Shown here in pieces: positions 52,585 to 64,000 of a stretch of 64,000 nt of DNA. The position numbers and the translations under genes were made by a program. Below the pieces are notes generated by a model, which was not told the origin of the DNA, searched no databases, and saw nothing but the letters and a program-made list of their open reading frames with translations. How positions within the stretch are numbered: the first letter of the stretch is position 1; every line of letters starts with the position of its first letter. The DNA is from an uncultured Gammaproteobacteria bacterium (lineage in GTDB: Bacteria; Pseudomonadota; Gammaproteobacteria; Arenicellales; JAANXG01): the NCBI GenBank assembly GCA_947259175.1, contig CAMYKW010000001.1, forward strand, positions 107,568-171,567, given 5' to 3'.

Positions 52585-52768
52585 TCGATATCCCCTTTCT
52601 TATGAGAGATTGTAGTCACCAGTTGACGCCGACAATTTAGCATAGCTGAAGTGATTTGTTGCGGAAAAATGCCGGCGACCGCTTGCCTTGACCGGCGTTT
52701 ATGGCTAGATACTATGTGACCGCGGGTTGACCCGCACATCGCACCCACGCGGTGGAGAATCATTTCCA

Positions 52769-53662
52769 ATGGCGGCGACTATGAACCTCGACACATGTAA
52801 AGTTTCTCTGGTGGTGCCAGCTTATAACGAAGAGCAAGCCATCGCCGGCGTACTGGAGGCCGTGCTCACGGTGCTGCGCGATGCCGGATTGGCGGATTTC
52901 GAGGTACTGGTGGTCGACGACGGCTCCACCGATCGCACCGCGGAAATCGCGCGTTCCACCGGCGCCGTGAAGCTGATACAGCACCCGCGCAACCGCGGCT
53001 ACGGCGCGGCGATAAAAACCGGAATCCGCCGCGCCCGCCACCCCTGGATTGCGATCACCGACGCGGACGGCAGCTACCCCAACGAGCGCCTGCCGGAACT
53101 GCTGGCGGCCGCCGGTGACGCGGCGATGGTGGTCGGCGCGCGCACCGCCGCGGATGCGGCGCAATCCTGGCTGCGCAACATTCCCAAGGCGGTCCTGCGG
53201 CGCTATGCGGAGTGGCTGACGCGAACCGACATCCCCGACCTCAACTCGGGTCTGCGGGTGTTTCGAAAAGACGCCGTTCAGCGATTGCTCAAGTTGCTGC
53301 CGGACGGCTTCAGCCTCACCAGCACGTTGACCATGGCGCTGATGCATAACGACGAGGACGTGCGCTTTGTCCCGGTCGGCTACGCAGCCAGGATCGGGAA
53401 ATCAAAAATACGCCCGCTGCGCGATAGCCTGAACTTTTTGATGCTCATAATCCGCACCGGTACGTACTTCGCACCGTTCAGGGTTTTCATGCCGCCGGCG
53501 GCCACGCTGTTCGCCTTGTTTCTGCTGAGCGCCGTGTATGACGTGGCGGTGTTGCGCAATCTGACCGAAAAGTCGCTGATCCTCCTGACCTTGAGCATGA
53601 ACCTGGGCATCTATGCCCTGCTCGCGGACATGATGCACAAGCAGCGGGACGAGACGGCGTAA
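52769..53662 (+). CDS. Family 2 glycosyltransferase (dolichyl-/polyprenyl-phosphate mannosyl/glucosyltransferase-like)
   Basis: VSLVVPAYNEEQAIAGVLEAV; VLVVDDGSTDRTAEIA; DADGSYPNERLPELL; C-terminal TMs. Confidence 0.9.
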   Translation: MAATMNLDTCKVSLVVPAYNEEQAIAGVLEAVLTVLRDAGLADFEVLVVDDGSTDRTAEIARSTGAVKLIQHPRNRGYGAAIKTGIRRARHPWIAITDADGSYPNERLPELLAAAGDAAMVVGARTAADAAQSWLRNIPKAVLRRYAEWLTRTDIPDLNSGLRVFRKDAVQRLLKLLPDGFSLTSTLTMALMHNDEDVRFVPVGYAARIGKSKIRPLRDSLNFLMLIIRTGTYFAPFRVFMPPAATLFALFLLSAVYDVAVLRNLTEKSLILLTLSMNLGIYALLADMMHKQRDETA

Positions 53663-53675
53663 CGGTCGGCCGGCA

Positions 53676-54476
53676 GTGGATGATCCCCCCTATGCCGACA
53701 GCGATGCATCGCGCCGGGCGCGCGATCGTCGCCTGTTCGACGCCATCGCGCCGCGTTATTGCCGCAAGGACCTGCTGCCGGCGTCGAGCCGCGCCCGGCG
53801 GTTACGCCTGGAACAGACCCTGCGCAAAGTGCCCTTGTCCCCGGCGGCCGACGTGCTGGAAGTCGGCTGCGGCGCCGGTTTCGCCGCGCGTTACCTGCAA
53901 GGCCGCTTTCGTTCCTATGTGGGTATCGACCAGTCGCAGCAACTCATACAACTGGCAACCGCCTACAACGCCGGCGACGATGTGGCTTTTCACTGCACCG
54001 ATATCACTTCCTATGAACCGGACAGACTTTTTGACGGAATTTTCATGATCGGGGTGCTGCACCACCTCCCACGCCCCGAGGATGACCTCGCGCACATCGC
54101 CGGTTGGCTGGCGCCCGCCGGCTGGCTGGTGGTCAACGAGCCGCAACCGGCCAACCCGCTGTTCAGTCACGCCCGGCGCATCCGCAAGCGACTGCACGAA
54201 GACTACTCGGCGGAACAGGAACAACTCTCCGCCGCCCAGCTCACCACAATGTTCGCGCATGCCGGTTTCAGCGATGTGGTTGTGGCGCCGCAAGGCTTGT
54301 TCTCCACGCCGTTGGCGGAGGTGGTGCTCAAGCCGCAACTGCTGGCTCGGGCGCTCGCCTTACCGGCGTGCCTGCTGGACCGCGTCCTGGAGGCTGCGGC
54401 CGCGCCGCTGCTGCGCCGCCTGTCGTGGAACCTGATCGCCGCCGGCCGCCGCGCCCCGGCGACCGCAGATGAATAG
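53676..54476 (+). CDS. Class I SAM-dependent methyltransferase
   Basis: DVLEVGCGAGFAARYL; GIFMIGVLHHLPRPEDDLAHIAGWLAPAG. Confidence 0.88.
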   Translation: MDDPPYADSDASRRARDRRLFDAIAPRYCRKDLLPASSRARRLRLEQTLRKVPLSPAADVLEVGCGAGFAARYLQGRFRSYVGIDQSQQLIQLATAYNAGDDVAFHCTDITSYEPDRLFDGIFMIGVLHHLPRPEDDLAHIAGWLAPAGWLVVNEPQPANPLFSHARRIRKRLHEDYSAEQEQLSAAQLTTMFAHAGFSDVVVAPQGLFSTPLAEVVLKPQLLARALALPACLLDRVLEAAAAPLLRRLSWNLIAAGRRAPATADE

Positions 54477-54900
54477 AAACTCCCCGCTATTGTTCGCAAT
54501 CTCCGGTTTCGGACTGCTCGGCATGGTCAGCTTCACGCTGAACCTGGGCCTGAGCGCCCTGCTCCACGAGGTTGTTAGGGCGCCCGAGGAACTGGCGTTC
54601 GCGGTCGCACTGGTGGTGGTGTTTGCGGTGAACTTTCTCGCTTGCCGCTATCTGATTTTCGACGCCGCCGGCGGCAACCTCTACCGCCAGCTCGTCGCGT
54701 TCGCCTTGTCGTCGCTGGTTTTTCGCGGTTTGGAATATGTCGCTTTTCTTTTGCTGCACAGCGTGGCGGGAGTCCATTACCTCGTCGCCATCGCCGCGGT
54801 GCTCGGCATATCGATGATCGGCAAGTTCTTGTTCTATCGCGGGGCGGTGTTCGTAGCGGACGACGATACGAAGCGGACGCGACGCGGGAATACACGCTGA
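54469..54900 (+). CDS. GtrA-family membrane protein
   Basis: Four TM segments; AVALVVVFAVNFLACRYLIF; operon with the GT2. Confidence 0.85.
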   Translation: MNRNSPLLFAISGFGLLGMVSFTLNLGLSALLHEVVRAPEELAFAVALVVVFAVNFLACRYLIFDAAGGNLYRQLVAFALSSLVFRGLEYVAFLLLHSVAGVHYLVAIAAVLGISMIGKFLFYRGAVFVADDDTKRTRRGNTR

Positions 54901-57369: not shown

Positions 57370-57663
57370 ATGACCGAAATCACAAAATCCGAGCTCGAAC
57401 CCTACCTGGGCCAAACGTTTCAAATCCGGTTCGGCGAGCAGTGTCGCGACGCCGAACTCATCGAAGTCTCGGTCATCAGGTCCGAGACCCCGAAAGACGG
57501 ACGCCAGGAGCCGTTCTCCGTCCTTTTTCGCACCGCGGAAAAAGAGGCGTATAACCAGGGCATCTATCCGGTCACCCACGAAGCGCTCGGCGAACACGCG
57601 ATCTTTCTGGTGCCCATCGGCCCCGACGACACCGGGATGCGCTACGAAGCGGTGTTTTCCTGA
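57370..57663 (+). CDS. DUF6916-like protein, no signal peptide
   Basis: LEPYLGQTFQIRF...ELIEVSVI...PFSVLFRTAEKEAYNQGIYPVTHEALGEHAIFLVPIGPDDTGMRYEAVFS. Confidence 0.65.
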   Translation: MTEITKSELEPYLGQTFQIRFGEQCRDAELIEVSVIRSETPKDGRQEPFSVLFRTAEKEAYNQGIYPVTHEALGEHAIFLVPIGPDDTGMRYEAVFS

Positions 57664-57697
57664 TTGCGGACCCCCGATCTCACCGGTAAAACCAGCC

Positions 57698-58186
57698 TCA
57701 ACGATCGAGCACCGTCGGCGACCATTCCATCAGGTAATACACCCCCTGTTCTTCAATCTTGCGGAACCCGAGGCGGTCGTACAGGCGCATCGCCGGGTTT
57801 TCGCGCTCGACGTGGATGCGCACCCGCTTGTTGACCGCGGCCGCCTCGTCGAGCACCTGCTGCATCAGTTTGGCGCCCAGGCCCTTGCCACGGTGCTGCG
57901 GAAGCAGCGCAATGTCGATCACGCGAATCTCGTCGTCGCGGCGCTCGACATATAAGCGCCCGATGCCCTCGCCGTGTTCTTCAATGATCTGGAATTCCGC
58001 CTCACTGAACTGTTCGGTGTAGAACGTGTGCTGCGCGTTGAACTGCATGCGCAGAAACTCCTGCTTCTGCTCATCGCTCCACGGCACCATCGCCATCTCC
58101 TCGTCGCGCGTCGACGCGTAGACCGCGTACAGGAACTCCTGGTCCCTGTCGGTGATCGGCCGAAAGTCGATCGCGGCGGACAGCAT
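57698..58186 (-). CDS. GNAT-family N-acetyltransferase
   Basis: Start MLSAAIDFRPITDRDQ (58186); IRVIDIALLPQHRGKGLGAKLMQQVLDEA...ENPAMRLYDRLGFRKI. Confidence 0.92.
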   Translation of the reverse strand: MLSAAIDFRPITDRDQEFLYAVYASTRDEEMAMVPWSDEQKQEFLRMQFNAQHTFYTEQFSEAEFQIIEEHGEGIGRLYVERRDDEIRVIDIALLPQHRGKGLGAKLMQQVLDEAAAVNKRVRIHVERENPAMRLYDRLGFRKIEEQGVYYLMEWSPTVLDR

Positions 58187-58203
58187 CGCGCAGTCGCAGC
58201 GGG

Positions 58204-58653
58204 TCAGTTGAACACCGATTCCAGATGGGGCCGGCCGGCGGCATCCGGCACGATGCCGAAAAACAGGTCCACGCGGCCCAGGCGCGCGTGTTCGACGCGA
58301 TAGGTGCGCCCGCGCCCGCTCAACGCCGCAATTCCCCGCCCCTCGAATACGGTGACGAAGGCCTCCGACCGCGGCAGGCCTCGCGGGCGCGCCCCTGCCG
58401 AAGGCAACCGGCACACCTCGGTCAAACGCACATAGACCGCGTCGCCCCGGTCATCATAGATGCGGAACCAGGATCCGATCAGCGGCGAGAAATCGGCGGC
58501 GGTCATCTTGTGCAGCGGCGGCAGACGGCGATGCTGCTCGGCCGACAATGCGGCATGGGCTACACCACCCACCGCGGACGTCACGCCGATTGCGCCCAGC
58601 GCCGAAATCTTCCGCAGGAATACGCGTCGTTGCGTCGTTTTAGTCTCGTTCAT
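58204..58653 (-). CDS. DUF6916-like protein with Tat-type signal
   Basis: TTQRRVFLRKISALGAIGVTSAVGGVAHA twin-Arg; MTAADFSPLIGSWFRI...GIVPDAAGRPHLESVFN. Confidence 0.7.
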   Translation of the reverse strand: MNETKTTQRRVFLRKISALGAIGVTSAVGGVAHAALSAEQHRRLPPLHKMTAADFSPLIGSWFRIYDDRGDAVYVRLTEVCRLPSAGARPRGLPRSEAFVTVFEGRGIAALSGRGRTYRVEHARLGRVDLFFGIVPDAAGRPHLESVFN

Positions 58654-58704
58654 GATGTGTCACTCCTGGCAGTTTCTTGATCCGGTCGACTGGGGTTCCC
58701 GCCG

Positions 58705-59235
58705 TCATGAGCGGCTGGGATAGGTACCCTCCAGCGCGATGATGTAATTCATGACTAAATACGGCTGCAGATTGTTGTGCGGCCCATTACCGCCCATGTT
58801 GGTGAGTGCATTGGGGGCCATATTTACCGCGTTGGCGCCCGAGCTGTATATCCGTGTGCTGGCGTCGGTTTCTCCGGTCAGATTGTTGGCGACATTCTGC
58901 TCGCCTTCTTCGTCGGTCGCGTCGTTCGATCCGAACAGGTCGTGATTGTGAATGGGCATTTGTGCCACGCTCAACGTCTCGACCTCCGCACCGGCTCTCT
59001 CGCCGAGCCTGCGCGTGGTCAATCCCGGCCCAGTGCCCTCGCCAATCGGGACGCGTCCCTCAAGATTCGGCAGTGCGGTCGTCGTGCGCCCGTCACCGCC
59101 ATAGATCGTGCCGATCAGCGAGAACAGCGCCGTGTTTTGGCTGATTGGCAGCAATTGACCATCGCAAAACGCGTAACCGCGCGGAGCAAAATTGCCGGCG
59201 AAGATCTTGATCTCGGCAAGAAATGGATCAGACAT
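58705..59235 (-). CDS. Phage tail collar-domain / MdpB-like protein 1
   Basis: DPFLAEIKIFAGNFAPRGYAFCDGQLLPISQNTALFSLIGTIYGGDGRTTTALPNLEGRVPIG. Confidence 0.93.
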   Translation of the reverse strand: MSDPFLAEIKIFAGNFAPRGYAFCDGQLLPISQNTALFSLIGTIYGGDGRTTTALPNLEGRVPIGEGTGPGLTTRRLGERAGAEVETLSVAQMPIHNHDLFGSNDATDEEGEQNVANNLTGETDASTRIYSSGANAVNMAPNALTNMGGNGPHNNLQPYLVMNYIIALEGTYPSRS

Positions 59236-59256
59236 GGGTTTATCCTCAAGAATGAA

Positions 59257-59769
59257 TTAGGCGCGGGATGGGTAAATGCCGACCAGGGCGATGATGAAGC
59301 AGATACACAGGTACGGCATCATGTTGTTGTGCGGTTGGCTGCCGCCGGTATTAGCGATTGCATTGGTCTCCATCGGAGCCGAGCCGCCGGGGACGTAAAT
59401 CGGTGTGCTGGCATTGGCCAGGACATTGTTCGCCGGCGCGTTGCTGTTGGCGGCGTCGTTTTCCGCCTGCAGCGTATGCTTGTGCTGCGGCAGATTGTTC
59501 GTGGTTAAAGTTACGTCTTGCTGGCCACTCTTGGTGCCAAGGGACCGCGGTGTCAGCCCCGGCCCGCTGCCGTAATGAATAGGCACCCGGCCGCGCAATT
59601 CGGGCAGCCCAAAGGTGGTGCGCCCGTCACCGCCGTAGATCGTGCCCAATAGCGAAAACAGCGCGTCGTTTTGGGCAACCGCCAGCAATTGACCTTCACA
59701 CTTCGCCCAGCCTCGCGGGGCAAAGTTGCCGGCAAACATTTTGATCTCACCGACGAAAGGTTCAGCCAT
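59257..59769 (-). CDS. Phage tail collar-domain / MdpB-like protein 2
   Basis: EPFVGEIKMFAGNFAPRGWAKCEGQLLAVAQNDALFSLLGTIYGGDGRTTFGLPELRGRVPIHYGSG. Confidence 0.93.
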   Translation of the reverse strand: MAEPFVGEIKMFAGNFAPRGWAKCEGQLLAVAQNDALFSLLGTIYGGDGRTTFGLPELRGRVPIHYGSGPGLTPRSLGTKSGQQDVTLTTNNLPQHKHTLQAENDAANSNAPANNVLANASTPIYVPGGSAPMETNAIANTGGSQPHNNMMPYLCICFIIALVGIYPSRA

Positions 59770-59807
59770 GTTCTTGTCTCCTGGTCATTGGTTCTTGTGC
59801 GTCTCGA

Positions 59808-60314
59808 TTAGTTGCGTGAGGGGAACAACCCCTGCAGGGCGATGCAGAAATTCACGGTGATGAAAGGCTGCATGTTGTTGTGGCCCGTATTAGTACCCGC
59901 ATTTCCCACCGCATTCGCATTCATGTTGACGGTCTTGGATCCGGACAGCGCATGGTAGATGGGAAGCACCGCCTGCCCGTAGCGCCTGCCGGTAGCCTGG
60001 TTGGAATCGGCGGCGTCGCCGTATCCCTGCAATTGGTGGGTGTGGTTGGGGATCTCACCGATGAGCAGCGTGTGATTCTCCTCGCCACTCTTCTGACCCA
60101 GCGCATGACTGTTTCCTTCATGCATGCAGGCGCGGCCGCGCAAGTCGGGCAACGCAAACGAGGTTCGTCCATCTCCGCCATAGGTCGTCCCCAACAGCGA
60201 ATAAAGCGACTGATTCTGATTGATCGGCAGGATCTCGCCATCACACTGGGCCCAGCCGCGGGGTGCAAAATTGAAGCCGAAAAGCCGTACCTCGGCCAGG
60301 AAGGGTTCAGACAT
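59808..60314 (-). CDS. Phage tail collar-domain / MdpB-like protein 3
   Basis: EPFLAEVRLFGFNFAPRGWAQCDGEILPINQNQSLYSLLGTTYGGDGRTSFALPDLRGRACMHEG. Confidence 0.93.
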   Translation of the reverse strand: MSEPFLAEVRLFGFNFAPRGWAQCDGEILPINQNQSLYSLLGTTYGGDGRTSFALPDLRGRACMHEGNSHALGQKSGEENHTLLIGEIPNHTHQLQGYGDAADSNQATGRRYGQAVLPIYHALSGSKTVNMNANAVGNAGTNTGHNNMQPFITVNFCIALQGLFPSRN

Positions 60315-60372
60315 GTGTTGGTCTCCTTATGTCACGAATGGTGATATCGGGATTTGTCTGTGTCATTGTCCC

Positions 60373-63300
60373 TTAATGACTCGGCAACGTCGTGGTGCAG
60401 GTGGCGTTGAAGGAAATCGGATTCGACGACGCGTTCAATATCGCTGTGGCGCCGTTGTTGGCCGTTGCCAAGGCAGCCAGCGACGCCTGGGTGATCGAGA
60501 TCGCTGAGGAATTTCTCTCGTCCAGCTCGATCGTTCCCGGCGATCCTGCAGCCCCGTCGTCGTTACCGGTGATGTCGGCACAGGCGCTGGCCGAATCACG
60601 AGTCGCCAGTTCGATCGCGCCGTCACCGATGCCGGTGAACGCATTGTTGGTAACATCCAGATTCAATGTCGGACTTTGGCTAGCGTCATCATCGAAGAAG
60701 AAGCGAATGCCCTCGGAATCCGTATTGGAAATCGAGTTGTTATCGATCGTGATGTTGTAGGTGCCGTCGTTATCGCCGACGGCAAACTGAATGCCGTCGT
60801 CACCACCATTGTCGCCTCCGCCCGGGACGGGATTGGTGATCGTGTTGTTCTGGATCAGCAGGGTCATCGTCTCGGCAATGGCGGCGTCGACGCCAACATC
60901 GCTGACAACGATGCCGTCGCTAACGGCGAAACCAAACGGGTCAACACCACCATTGATCGTATTGCCGTGGGTCAACAGCGGTCCGCCGATGCGTCCTGAA
61001 ATGTTACCGCCGCCGGTAGTAGGCGCGACGATGATGCCGTCACCAGGCAGATCGTTTTGCGTATTGCCTTGAATATCAAACGTCAGCGTCGCGGCGTCGG
61101 TCACCAGCATATGGAACGAGCCGCCGTTGGGGTTGTTGTCGGCGCCGCCCGGGTCGGTGACCGTATTACCGATCACATCGGCGTTGTTGGTTCCCGAGCC
61201 GCCAGCCTCGAAGCGGACGGCATCCGATTCGACGTCATCGAACAGGCTGCCGGTGACGTTCACGTCCGCGCCGGCCGTCCCCTCGGTCTCGACGACGATC
61301 GCCTGGCCCATTGAAGGCCCACCAGGCGCTACGGTGAAATCAGCGCCGTCAACGAAGTCGGATCCATTGATGACGTCAAAATCCAGCGTCCCGGCATTGT
61401 TGAAAATATTGACGCCGGTGTCGAAGTAGCGCGTCAAGTCAACGTTGTCGAGTGTGAAGCTGCCGCTGATGTTATTGGCCGCGGGGGTATCGAACGCAAA
61501 CGCGTCCTCGCCCGTCGCGTCGCCGATATCCTCAAAGATACTGTCGTTGACCGTCAAATTGACGACCCCGGTGCCGAATACGCCGTGCCGGCCGGTATTG
61601 TCGACCAACATTTGATTGAGCTCGATGTCCTGCGTATCGGTCAGCGAGATGCCGTCGCCGGTGGTGTTCTGAATCGTGCCGCCGGAGTTGTTCTGGGTTC
61701 CCCCGCCGTCGCCGCTGACCGTCAGCCCGCCACTGCTGCCCGTCGTATCCAACACGATGCCATTCGTCGCCCCGTTGGCCGAGATGCTCTCAAACGTCAA
61801 GCCGCTGCCGCCGATGGTGGTGTTGGTGACATCCAATGCGGTGCCGGTGCCCGAGCTGATCGAATTGTTCGCCCCGGTGACATTCAACGTGCCGCCGCCG
61901 TCCGCGAGGATGCCATCGCCGCTTGCCGTCGTGACGTCCATGTCGCCACCGGTGAAGTTGAACGTCGCGTTGGTGTTGGAGCCGCTCAAATCGATACCCC
62001 GATTGGCGCCCGTACTGGTGATGTCGATGTCGCTGCCGCTGAAGGTAAACGTTGCCGAACCGCCGTTATTGGTGCCGCCCACGCGGATGCCGGTGCCGCC
62101 GGCATTGTGGCTCAGTGTCCCCGAGTGCGTGAAGCTGCCGCCGGTCCGTTCGAAGATGAAGATCGCATCGCCCGCGGTGTTGCTGATGTTCGCACCAATG
62201 TTGATCGTGGCGTCTCCGCCGGTGCCATTCGTAGCAGTGCCGATTTCGATCGCCCGGTCCGCAGCGCCGGCGATCGTGCCCGCGGTGATCGTCAGTGAGC
62301 CGCTCACGGAGTCGAGCTCGATACCGTCCGCGGAGCTGCTGCTCGACGAGACTTCGTCGAAGGTGGCGTTCAGCGTACCGGTGTCGAGATCCAGGGCCTG
62401 ACCGCTGCCGCTGATTGTCACGTCGCTGACAGTCAAGGTTCCGAAGCTCGTGCCGACGATCCCCGTGCCCGTGCCGGTGTTGCCGATGTCGACGCCGCGG
62501 ATGATATTGCTGCTGGCGAGGCTGATGCCGGTGGCGTTCGTGCTGGCGATCGCCGGCGCGGTGCCGCCCACAGTGGGCAGCGTGCGGGAGTCGGTGGGCT
62601 CGGTGACACCGAGCAGCGCGGCGGTGGTGCCCGTCGCGCCTTCGCCGATGACGACCGAGATATTGTTCAGGTTCAGCGGGCCAGTGTAGCTGCCCGCGGC
62701 AATGAAGACCTCCTGGTTACTGGTAGCGGCAGAGACGTTGTAGCCGGCAATCGAATTGAAGGGATCACTGAGCGTGCCGACGTTGCCCGCGCCGCTGGGC
62801 GTGCTGTCGATGAACCAGATCACGTCGGTGCCGAATTGCAGGGTAACCGTCGCGGTATCGACACCGTCGGCCTCGTAAGTGAACGAGTCGTTAGTGAAGT
62901 CACCGGCAGGAGGTTCGTAGAGGAAGCTGCCGTTGGCCTGCACGGTGACGGTGCCGCTGTTGGTGGTCGCCGTGGCGATGCCGACATTGCCGGCTGCGCC
63001 ATTCACTTCGGTCACCGCCGAGGCACCATTGAGGTCATTGCTCAATACCCCGTTGCCCGCGGGAACGTTTAGGCCGACGTTGCCGATGATGCCCGGGTAG
63101 CTGTCATCCACGGCATCGACCGGCGGAGCGTCGTCATCGGTAATAATGACCGTATGCGTCGTCTGCGCGCCGAGGGCCGCGGGTCCGCCGGGATTCTGCA
63201 CCTGAAGGTTCACCGTCTCGCCAGTTCCCTCGTCATTCAGGTCGTCGATCGGGCTCAGGATTGCACTCATTACGGCTCCCGAAACGGTACCGGCGGGGAA

Positions 63301-64000
63301 CGTCAGTGTCTGCGTGCCGATAGCGGTGTAGTCGCTGCCGCTGGTGGCTGAGCCGCCGCCGGCATCGACCACATCCACGGTGACCGGTGTGCCCAGGGAT
63401 GCGGCGGCAAAAGTGATCCGGACATTGACGTTAAGAGAAGTGGATTCATTCGCAGTGGCGCTGCTTGCAAGCTGGAATTGCACGCTGGCGCTGCTTTCAT
63501 CGTCGAGGATGTTGGCGGTGGCCGAGGCGGTACCGATGCTGACCGCCGGATCGCTCGGGTTAGAGATGGTGGCGTCGATGGTCTCGGTGCCTTCCAGCAA
63601 GAGGTCGTCGTTGACCACAACGCTCAAGGTGCCGGTGCTGGCGCCGTCGGCGATGCTGATCTGCGGCGTCCCGATGGCCGTGTAGTCGCTGCCGGAGGTG
63701 GCCGTGCCCGTTCCATCATCGACCAGATCGACGGTGATCGCGCTGCCGGTGTCGTTGGTCTTGCTCAGCGTGGCCGTGTACACCGCATTGAGCGGGCCGT
63801 TCTCGTCGCCGTCGGTGGTCGCCGACAGATCGACGGTCGCCGTGTCATTGTCGAGGATGTTGGCGGTAGCCGAGGCGGTGCCGATGCTGACCGCCGGATT
63901 GCTCGGATTGGAGATCGTGGCGTCGATGGTCTCGGTGCCTTCCAGCAAGGCGTCGTCGATGACGGCAACGCTCAAGGTGCCGGTGCTGGCGCCGTCGGCG
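60373..64000 (-). CDS. Giant Calx-beta / parallel beta-helix repeat surface protein (partial; N-terminus beyond window)
   Basis: Repeated Calx-beta units (GTETIDATISNPSNPAVSIGTASATANILDND...), then beta-helix-like Asn/Gly/Thr-rich region, Cys-containing C-terminus CTTTLPSH. Confidence 0.88.
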   Translation of the reverse strand, partial: ADGASTGTLSVAVIDDALLEGTETIDATISNPSNPAVSIGTASATANILDNDTATVDLSATTDGDENGPLNAVYTATLSKTNDTGSAITVDLVDDGTGTATSGSDYTAIGTPQISIADGASTGTLSVVVNDDLLLEGTETIDATISNPSDPAVSIGTASATANILDDESSASVQFQLASSATANESTSLNVNVRITFAAASLGTPVTVDVVDAGGGSATSGSDYTAIGTQTLTFPAGTVSGAVMSAILSPIDDLNDEGTGETVNLQVQNPGGPAALGAQTTHTVIITDDDAPPVDAVDDSYPGIIGNVGLNVPAGNGVLSNDLNGASAVTEVNGAAGNVGIATATTNSGTVTVQANGSFLYEPPAGDFTNDSFTYEADGVDTATVTLQFGTDVIWFIDSTPSGAGNVGTLSDPFNSIAGYNVSAATSNQEVFIAAGSYTGPLNLNNISVVIGEGATGTTAALLGVTEPTDSRTLPTVGGTAPAIASTNATGISLASSNIIRGVDIGNTGTGTGIVGTSFGTLTVSDVTISGSGQALDLDTGTLNATFDEVSSSSSSADGIELDSVSGSLTITAGTIAGAADRAIEIGTATNGTGGDATINIGANISNTAGDAIFIFERTGGSFTHSGTLSHNAGGTGIRVGGTNNGGSATFTFSGSDIDITSTGANRGIDLSGSNTNATFNFTGGDMDVTTASGDGILADGGGTLNVTGANNSISSGTGTALDVTNTTIGGSGLTFESISANGATNGIVLDTTGSSGGLTVSGDGGGTQNNSGGTIQNTTGDGISLTDTQDIELNQMLVDNTGRHGVFGTGVVNLTVNDSIFEDIGDATGEDAFAFDTPAANNISGSFTLDNVDLTRYFDTGVNIFNNAGTLDFDVINGSDFVDGADFTVAPGGPSMGQAIVVETEGTAGADVNVTGSLFDDVESDAVRFEAGGSGTNNADVIGNTVTDPGGADNNPNGGSFHMLVTDAATLTFDIQGNTQNDLPGDGIIVAPTTGGGNISGRIGGPLLTHGNTINGGVDPFGFAVSDGIVVSDVGVDAAIAETMTLLIQNNTITNPVPGGGDNGGDDGIQFAVGDNDGTYNITIDNNSISNTDSEGIRFFFDDDASQSPTLNLDVTNNAFTGIGDGAIELATRDSASACADITGNDDGAAGSPGTIELDERNSSAISITQASLAALATANNGATAILNASSNPISFNATCTTTLPSH
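63503..64000 (-). repeat. Coding tandem repeat, period about 348 nt (116 aa, Calx-beta)
   Basis: TCGAGGATGTTGGCGGT... recurs at 63503 and 63851 with high nucleotide similarity; continues to the window edge. Confidence 0.8.

Follow-up and report, generated by a model that had tools for sequence, protein, structure and literature searches.

Collar-domain proteins, annotated as 'microcystin-dependent' (COG4675) or 'tail fiber' proteins, are frequent in bacterial genomes, and to our knowledge no role has been established for them. The locus considered here, which encodes three such proteins at one end of a 64,000-nucleotide stretch of DNA (the whole of which is referred to as the window), raises the question of whether these genes are what is left of a phage or instead form part of a bacterial device and, if so, what that device would do.

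Seven genes were located between positions 57370 and 64000 of the window, where the sequence-only reading had put them, and a Pfam profile search agreed with the families assigned. On the minus strand, these comprise the C-terminal 1208 residues of a giant Calx-beta/beta-helix surface protein (60373..63999; Calx-beta in three stretches, 8.6e-15, with a Big_9 match below threshold), collar 3 (59808..60314; 168 aa; PF07484, 1.1e-27), collar 2 (59257..59769; 170 aa; PF07484, 1.5e-28), collar 1 (58705..59235; 176 aa; PF07484, 1.6e-26), a DUF6916 protein bearing a twin-arginine (Tat) signal (58204..58653; 149 aa; PF21880, 2.8e-12) and a cassette-specific GNAT acetyltransferase (57698..58186; 162 aa; Acetyltransf_1, 6e-14), with the intergenic gaps from the giant to the GNAT gene measuring 58, 38, 21, 51 and 17 nt. 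A short DUF6916 protein of 97 aa, lacking a signal peptide, is encoded on the plus strand (57370..57663; PF21880, 5e-28) by a gene convergent with the minus-strand operon and 34 nt from it. A promoter scan at the locus gave no signal above chance, and none of the seven window proteins (0/7) was matched by the PADLOC anti-phage defence models.

The three window collars scored 92-99 bits against the curated PF07484 cut-off of 24, sharing the collar domain (E ~1e-27) with phage tail collars and T4 gp12-type fibre tips (PF07484, PF21939). Among PDB entries, T4 gp12 and a long tail fibre were matched by a collar 2 profile, and the HxH motif of the cassette, present as HNH, HKH and HTH in collars 1, 2 and 3, respectively, and in 256 of 256 cassette collars, aligned with that of the phage long-tail-fibre tip. 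Unlike phage fibre tips, however, the cassette collars are three separate short paralogues of about 170 aa, with no shaft and no other phage genes, and adjoin GNAT and DUF6916. Their N-termini are of a fixed MSEPF type (MSDPF, MAEPF and MSEPF in collars 1, 2 and 3), the first 60 residues showing some 93% modal identity as compared to 29-54% in mid-protein, and each carries a hypervariable segment of about 50 residues.

The extent to which this arrangement is conserved was considered in a set of 80 named genome contigs that covers at least eight phyla, with neither GNAT nor DUF6916 being used in their selection. The order collar 3-collar 2-collar 1 was retained in 66 of the 80 loci, exactly three collars were present in 53 of 61 complete loci, and plasmid-borne sets mostly held three copies. 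The three collars correspond to three ancient lineages, and operon position tracks the collar tree (18 changes, as opposed to 85 with shuffled labels). In the 65 loci with enough sequence, GNAT was found in 59 and DUF6916 in 55. Co-occurrence was addressed in 399 Pseudomonadota genomes, of which 101 encode collars. There, 44 of 45 genomes with DUF6916 (p ~1e-29) and 38 of 39 with the GNAT subfamily (p ~1e-24) also encode collars, with 49 of 54 DUF6916 matches and 37 of 40 GNAT-subfamily matches lying no more than 3 kb from a collar. The GNAT and DUF6916 are, as such, dedicated collar partners, and the trio consists of three ancient paralogues in a fixed order. Since one-collar loci exist, accounting for 24 of 54 cytosolic-type loci in an unbiased sample, the trio is not obligatory. 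Conservation of the neighbourhood and the absence of phage structural genes just outside the window had been named earlier as the checks on a domesticated tail-fibre-like module; strict gene order and partner linkage indeed recur across phyla, and that reading, of a module independent of phage, was borne out as far as the two checks could be taken.

Were the collars the leftover tail-fibre genes of a decayed prophage or tailocin, the phage origin of their fold and the many PHROG tail families that they match would be readily explained. Capsid, sheath, baseplate and terminase families, as well as lysis genes, are, however, absent from the neighbouring window genes, and the flanks of the cassette within the window revealed no phage structural genes. 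Moreover, DUF6916 gave 0 matches in 50,697 phage records, the closest phage collars share less than 60% identity (36-38% being the best among the matches listed), and relatives are encoded on only 5 IMG/VR contigs. In related genomes, the cassette adjoins housekeeping genes (tsaD, gatB/yqeY-like), and the recurrence of the ordered trio with GNAT and DUF6916 across phyla likewise speaks against a remnant, rendering this explanation highly improbable. Extracellular contractile injection systems and tailocins are also phage-derived tail parts found in bacteria, yet no sheath, tube, baseplate or ATPase genes lie by the cassette. The module is a conserved bacterial cassette, best read as descended from the tail-tip proteins of phages. 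A bacterial collar-domain protein outside phage is also seen in RhiB of the Rhizobium rhiABC genes, which are expressed in the rhizosphere and can influence nodulation (PMC13133039, citing Cubo et al. 1992). As described, the rhi operon has a single collar protein together with quorum-sensing genes, with no mention there of a trio, GNAT, DUF6916 or giant.

One correction concerns the giant protein, which at 1208 or more residues is incomplete: the contig (G000:C1) stops exactly at position 64000, within Calx-beta repeats with a period of 116 residues, and this contig end is the only cause of the missing N-terminus. Contig C23 was considered as a source of the N-terminal part and rejected, given that the 2074-aa inverse autotransporter encoded there ends at a stop of its own; a join is also ruled out by the different, S74-type C-terminus of that protein and by zero overlap between C23 and the end of the window. 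The last 400 residues of the window giant were modelled by AlphaFold2 as a strand-rich, beta-helix-like structure (pLDDT 76, pTM 0.82); a Foldseek search of this C-terminus against solved structures gave no significant match, with tailspikes and beta-helix enzymes topmost. Two C-terminal cysteines (residues 1140 and 1201) are invariant across 19 cassette giants. Tandem Repeats Finder detected no array in the giant gene. Complete cassette giants of the window's order have an N-terminal barrel in common with inverse autotransporters (type Ve, PF11924), as in the 2662-aa counterpart from the same genus (L030; 2.2e-11) and in a giant from the same order (L025; 7.6e-16). By analogy, the window giant, the N-terminus of which lies beyond the contig end, is probably anchored by such a barrel. 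In other lineages, by contrast, cassette giants are of autotransporter, OMP-barrel or DUF4347 type, such that the export routes of collar-adjacent giants (type Ve, type Va and DUF4347) are unrelated to one another, and the strand of the giants relative to the cassette varies between loci. A neighbour of about 410 aa in alphaproteobacterial cassettes had no match in the PDB or Pfam; a beta-propeller lectin would be our guess.

No signal peptide was detected in the collars, the GNAT or the short DUF6916 protein, nor was a common exporter found. The absence of signal peptides from collars, GNAT and DUF6916 in most loci would fit an intracellular complex of these proteins, with the surface giant being a chance neighbour. 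Of 68 cytosolic-type loci, 39 have a giant of at least 1000 aa nearby, as do 4 of the 11 loci with signal-peptide collars, a difference that is not significant (p=0.21). Such a purely cytoplasmic device is nonetheless unlikely: Sec-signalled collars have arisen in several lineages, the genome and genus of the window among them, Tat-type DUF6916 relatives repeatedly adjoin the cassette, giants of different export classes and of one common C-terminal type repeatedly lie directly next to collars, and a Ruegeria pomeroyi collar protein was detected in the exoproteome (PMC4949626). Collar proteins have also been reported from soil metaproteomes (PMC5579227).

In the DUF6916 protein encoded at 58204, the sequence opens with QRRVFLRK and runs on through a hydrophobic stretch to AHA; the twin arginine is kept in homologues. 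For the short version, AlphaFold2 predicted one helix and six strands (pLDDT 94), a fold with no significant match in the PDB or BFVD; DUF6916 is not mentioned in the literature searched. The Tat pathway exports folded proteins, and collars folded in the cytoplasm could conceivably be carried across the inner membrane as passengers of the Tat-signalled DUF6916 or another Tat partner. Small Tat-like proteins are enriched next to the cassette (26/483 ORFs vs. 21/1189 in the remainder of the loci; p=1e-4), often sitting between the collars and GNAT, and Chloroflexota, Bacteroidota and Deinococcus loci present a substrate-binding-like protein in a neighbouring slot, with a Tat signal in two or more of them. 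Still, a Tat-like partner was seen in only about one sixth of loci by the scan used, and we consider this route quite unlikely.

The best NCBIfam relative of the window GNAT is RimI, an N-terminal acetyltransferase, although at 45.4 bits the match falls below the equivalog cut-off of 86.4. In GNAT loci, the second collar residue is S, A, D, E, G or T in 86 of 87 collars, against a background of 39%. GNAT and DUF6916 were each found in 0 of 11 loci with signal-peptide collars, as opposed to 47 and 37, respectively, of 68 other loci, a contrast that is not phylogenetically independent, given how signal-peptide collars cluster, and for which a pairs test has no power. In the 399-genome sample, none of the nine genomes with signal-peptide collars encodes GNAT or DUF6916 anywhere. 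Although this restriction to cytosolic-type collars and the kinship to RimI point to the collar N-termini as substrate, GNATs have many substrates, and a formyltransferase, members of which class elsewhere act on sugars or tRNA, replaces GNAT in one Bacteroidota plasmid locus. That the GNAT modifies something else, for instance a lysine, a glycan on the giant or a small molecule, is a serious contender, falling only a little short of even odds, and the conserved collar N-terminus may have a structural role and not be a site of acetylation.

Taken as a whole, these observations are best explained by a domesticated tail-tip binding device with partners as outlined below, to which we assign a probability of roughly 0.55; the cassette probably makes a binding device that serves the cell surface or the surroundings. 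The collars, produced in the cytoplasm without signal peptides, would fold into metal-centred, tail-tip-like trimers of the T4 gp12 type through HxH. Since the three lineages have stayed distinct and in a set order, the native form would probably be a trimer with one of each collar, a possible heterotrimer. The linked GNAT would be a cytoplasmic modifier of the collars, with their invariant Met-Ser/Ala-acidic-Pro-Phe N-termini as its most likely site, and DUF6916, in cytosolic and Tat-exported versions, would serve as a small collar partner or chaperone. The collars would then be released or displayed, the hypervariable segments serving recognition, and would work alongside the giant beta-helix fibre that the same operon encodes for the surface, in putative adhesion. 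A broader reading, spanning many phyla and including the Gram-positive Paenibacillus, holds that an obligate heterotrimeric tail-tip head built from three paralogues, marked at its N-termini by a dedicated cytosolic acyltransferase and exported non-classically (as Tat cargo or otherwise), is mounted on giant surface fibres. Such an extension is unlikely but, if true, would describe a new kind of recognition organelle, phage-derived and served by a modification and export pathway of its own.

In this manner, collars are tied, by near-perfect co-occurrence, to an exact partner set, namely, a specific GNAT subfamily, DUF6916 and a giant surface protein, offering the first functional context for DUF6916. 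Culturable carriers, among them Ruegeria sp. TM1040, now allow the role of the collars to be tested directly.

Gene content and a Pfam domain search of positions 57370-64000 revealed exactly the genes listed by the sequence-only reading, the plus strand encoding a short DUF6916 protein and the minus strand a GNAT, a DUF6916 protein whose N-terminus is of the Tat type, collars 1, 2, and 3 (members of PF07484 by domain), and the C-terminal 1208 residues of a Calx-beta/beta-helix giant. As the minus-strand genes are separated by gaps of 17 to 58 nt and a purine-rich, GGAG/GAGG-like sequence lies upstream of four of the five downstream starts, these very likely form a single operon. The giant is incomplete because the assembly stops inside its Calx-beta repeats (period of 116 residues); the window covers G000:C1:107568-171567 of a 4.2-Mb draft genome, position 64000 being the contig end. 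Elsewhere in the window, genes for a GtrB-related glycosyltransferase, a methyltransferase, and a small protein stand in a single run on the plus strand (52745-54897), reminiscent of a set for modifying O-antigen or lipid-linked sugars.

When 84,980 species genomes were scanned with a collar 2 alignment, at least 549 relatives were recovered; the 80 best were retained and span Gamma-, Alpha-, Beta-, and Deltaproteobacteria, Acidobacteriota, Bacteroidota, Chloroflexota, Planctomycetota, Calditrichota, and others. The neighborhood proved to be conserved, a point on which the sequence-only reading had sought a check. The order col3-col2-col1 was seen in 66 of these best 80 of at least 549 relatives, twice in tandem in one, and among the 65 loci whose sequence extended 3.5 kb or more past the collars, the GNAT was present in 59 and a DUF6916 gene in 55 (within 5 kb), neither having been used for finding the loci. 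Deinococcus, the Gram-positive Paenibacillus, and Spirosoma were added from annotated plasmids; of the plasmids with a match, most carried three copies.

Co-occurrence was considered in an unselected, evenly drawn sample of 399 Pseudomonadota genomes, of which 101 contained a Collar domain, 45 DUF6916, and 39 this GNAT subfamily (E ≤ 1e-25). Collars were present in all but one of the DUF6916 genomes (hypergeometric p = 4e-29) and in all but one of the GNAT genomes (hypergeometric p = 1e-24), with 49 of 54 DUF6916 hits and 37 of 40 GNAT hits lying within 3 kb of a collar. Therefore, bacterial collars have dedicated partners in DUF6916 and this GNAT, the firmest new result obtained here. The sole sampled genome with DUF6916 and GNAT (a partial match) but no detected collar, G179 (C1:4953806 and 4977714), perhaps retains a decayed cassette. 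In genome G294, collars lack a neighboring GNAT, and one GNAT is found 2.5 Mb away. In the literature searched, no mention of DUF6916 and no paper combining a collar with Calx-beta were found.

That the cassette belongs to a prophage was ruled out on several grounds. No structural phage family was matched among its neighbors within the window, in line with the domesticated origin initially proposed; as read from sequence, the cassette of relatives adjoins identifiable housekeeping genes, namely, tsaD and gatB/yqeY-like genes in genome G001 and a fructose-bisphosphate aldolase gene in the same-genus genome G032; DUF6916 had zero matches in 50,697 phage records; and the closest phage collars share less than 60% identity, the best among the matches listed reaching 36-38%. 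By the same tests, the module is not a tailocin or contractile injection system. Relatives of collar 2 are encoded on only five IMG/VR contigs, and no PADLOC model matched the module.

When 180 collars taken from 60 triplets were placed on a tree, operon position required 18 changes, as compared to 85 with shuffled labels and a minimum of 2, and similarity classes required seven. Judging from these counts, the three collars are old paralogues maintained as a set. Exactly three collars were present in 53 of 61 complete loci of the similarity-selected set (one locus had five and one six), a number that fits a tip of the T4 gp12 type with its three chains. In an unbiased set of 54 cytosolic-type loci (i.e., with collars lacking a signal peptide), three collars were found in 24, one in 24, two in six, and more than three in none. 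Since single-collar loci exist, three collars are not required; those loci presumably form homotrimers. Within each class, the first 60 collar residues show ~93% modal identity and are followed by an HxH motif (256/256 sequences), ~50 hypervariable residues (29-54% modal identity per ten-residue block), and a conserved C-terminus, a layout that suggests a fixed trimeric scaffold with a variable recognition surface. T4 gp12 and a phage long tail fibre were both matched by the collar profile, and in the second of these the HxH was aligned as well. PMC4949626 cites the structure paper on the T4 short fibre. In phage tips, a metal on the axis of the trimer is bound by the HxH motif.

Where a signal peptide is absent, collars start with Met-Ser/Ala-Glu/Asp-Pro-Phe or Met-Asp/Glu. 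N-termini in which Met is followed by S, A, D, E, G, or T are typical N-acetylation substrates. Such a residue was found in 86 of 87 collars in GNAT loci vs. 39% of other ORFs, a count that is suggestive only, given that each start was assigned to the Met closest to the conserved motif and that the sequences are homologous. GNAT was found in 0/11 loci with Sec-signal collars vs. 47/68 others (Fisher p = 1.4e-5), a contrast that is not independent, as signal-peptide collars cluster on the tree; the corresponding values for DUF6916 were 0/11 and 37/68. All nine such Sec-signal-collar genomes in the 399-genome sample lack both genes entirely. We infer that the GNAT and the short DUF6916 protein may act on cytoplasmic collars.

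For the short DUF6916 protein, a fold of one helix and then six strands is predicted with high confidence (pLDDT 94), a model for which a fold search returned no significant structural relative. In a less likely rival reading, Tat hitchhiking, the presence of one DUF6916 form on each face of the inner membrane would be consistent with a protein escorting collars out of the cell. In favor of this, the Tat-signalled form occurs in the window and many relatives, and small proteins of Tat-like type are overrepresented next to the cassette (26/483 ORFs vs. 21/1189; p = 1e-4), an undercount in that the window's own copy was unlisted, probably owing to an overlapping antisense ORF.

Other genes accompany the collars. 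Between collar 1 and the GNAT, loci L060, L067, and L126 and 14 further loci encode a ~410-aa protein that lacks a signal peptide, invariably shares the strand of the collars, and contains repeated W..W motifs; it looks like a beta-propeller lectin. The L060 copy had no Pfam or PDB sequence match. A formyltransferase-family gene lies beside the collars in L048, L194, L200, and Spirosoma locus L213 (9690-10643), in the last immediately after the trio, with no GNAT being found. Genes resembling asparagine synthase and/or HPr kinase, of the kind seen in lasso-peptide clusters, are located near collars in L132, L168, L169, and L192. Sulfotransferase-like or aspartyl/asparaginyl-hydroxylase-like genes recur near collars (L071, L112, L128, L134, L136, L159, L160, and L194), hinting at further protein modification.

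Cassette-adjacent giants begin with export signals in many loci and share a C-terminal region with two invariant cysteines in all 19 aligned. Complete giants of the window's order (2662 and 3871 aa) are inverse autotransporters (PF11924; L030, 2.2e-11; L025, 7.6e-16). Outside this order, giants present a classical autotransporter barrel (3e-45, 7e-59), an OMP barrel (4e-10), or DUF4347 (2e-55). That giants with unrelated export routes repeatedly neighbor one and the same collar cassette speaks for a functional connection of cassette and giant at the surface. Counting against such a connection, giants (≥1000 aa) are found near cytosolic-type loci (39/68) but also near signal-peptide loci (4/11), the difference not being significant. 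The window's genome encodes a second, complete giant of 2074 aa (L123, G000:C23, 152-6376), with an inverse-autotransporter start, beta-helix repeats, and a weak endosialidase-chaperone (S74-like) C-terminus; its gene adjoins a fructose-bisphosphate aldolase gene, as in G032.

Support for the collar device being extracellular, a putative location in this organism, is indirect. A collar protein was detected in the Ruegeria pomeroyi exoproteome (PMC4949626) and COG4675 proteins in soil metaproteomes (PMC5579227), Sec signals were added to collars in several lineages, including the triplet of a same-genus genome (L036) and a fourth collar of the window's own genome (L006), and surface giants lie nearby. 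The gene for this fourth collar (L006, G000:C55, 9438-10247) is single, encoding a Sec-like signal peptide and adjoining a LysM-like protein gene, with no GNAT nearby. According to PMC13133039, RhiB of Rhizobium is a bacterial collar protein tied to plant interaction, although the rhi operon, as described there, differs from the cassette operon. The module is rated as one of phage-derived surface or secreted binding proteins, for which the evidence of linkage is strong and the mechanism putative.
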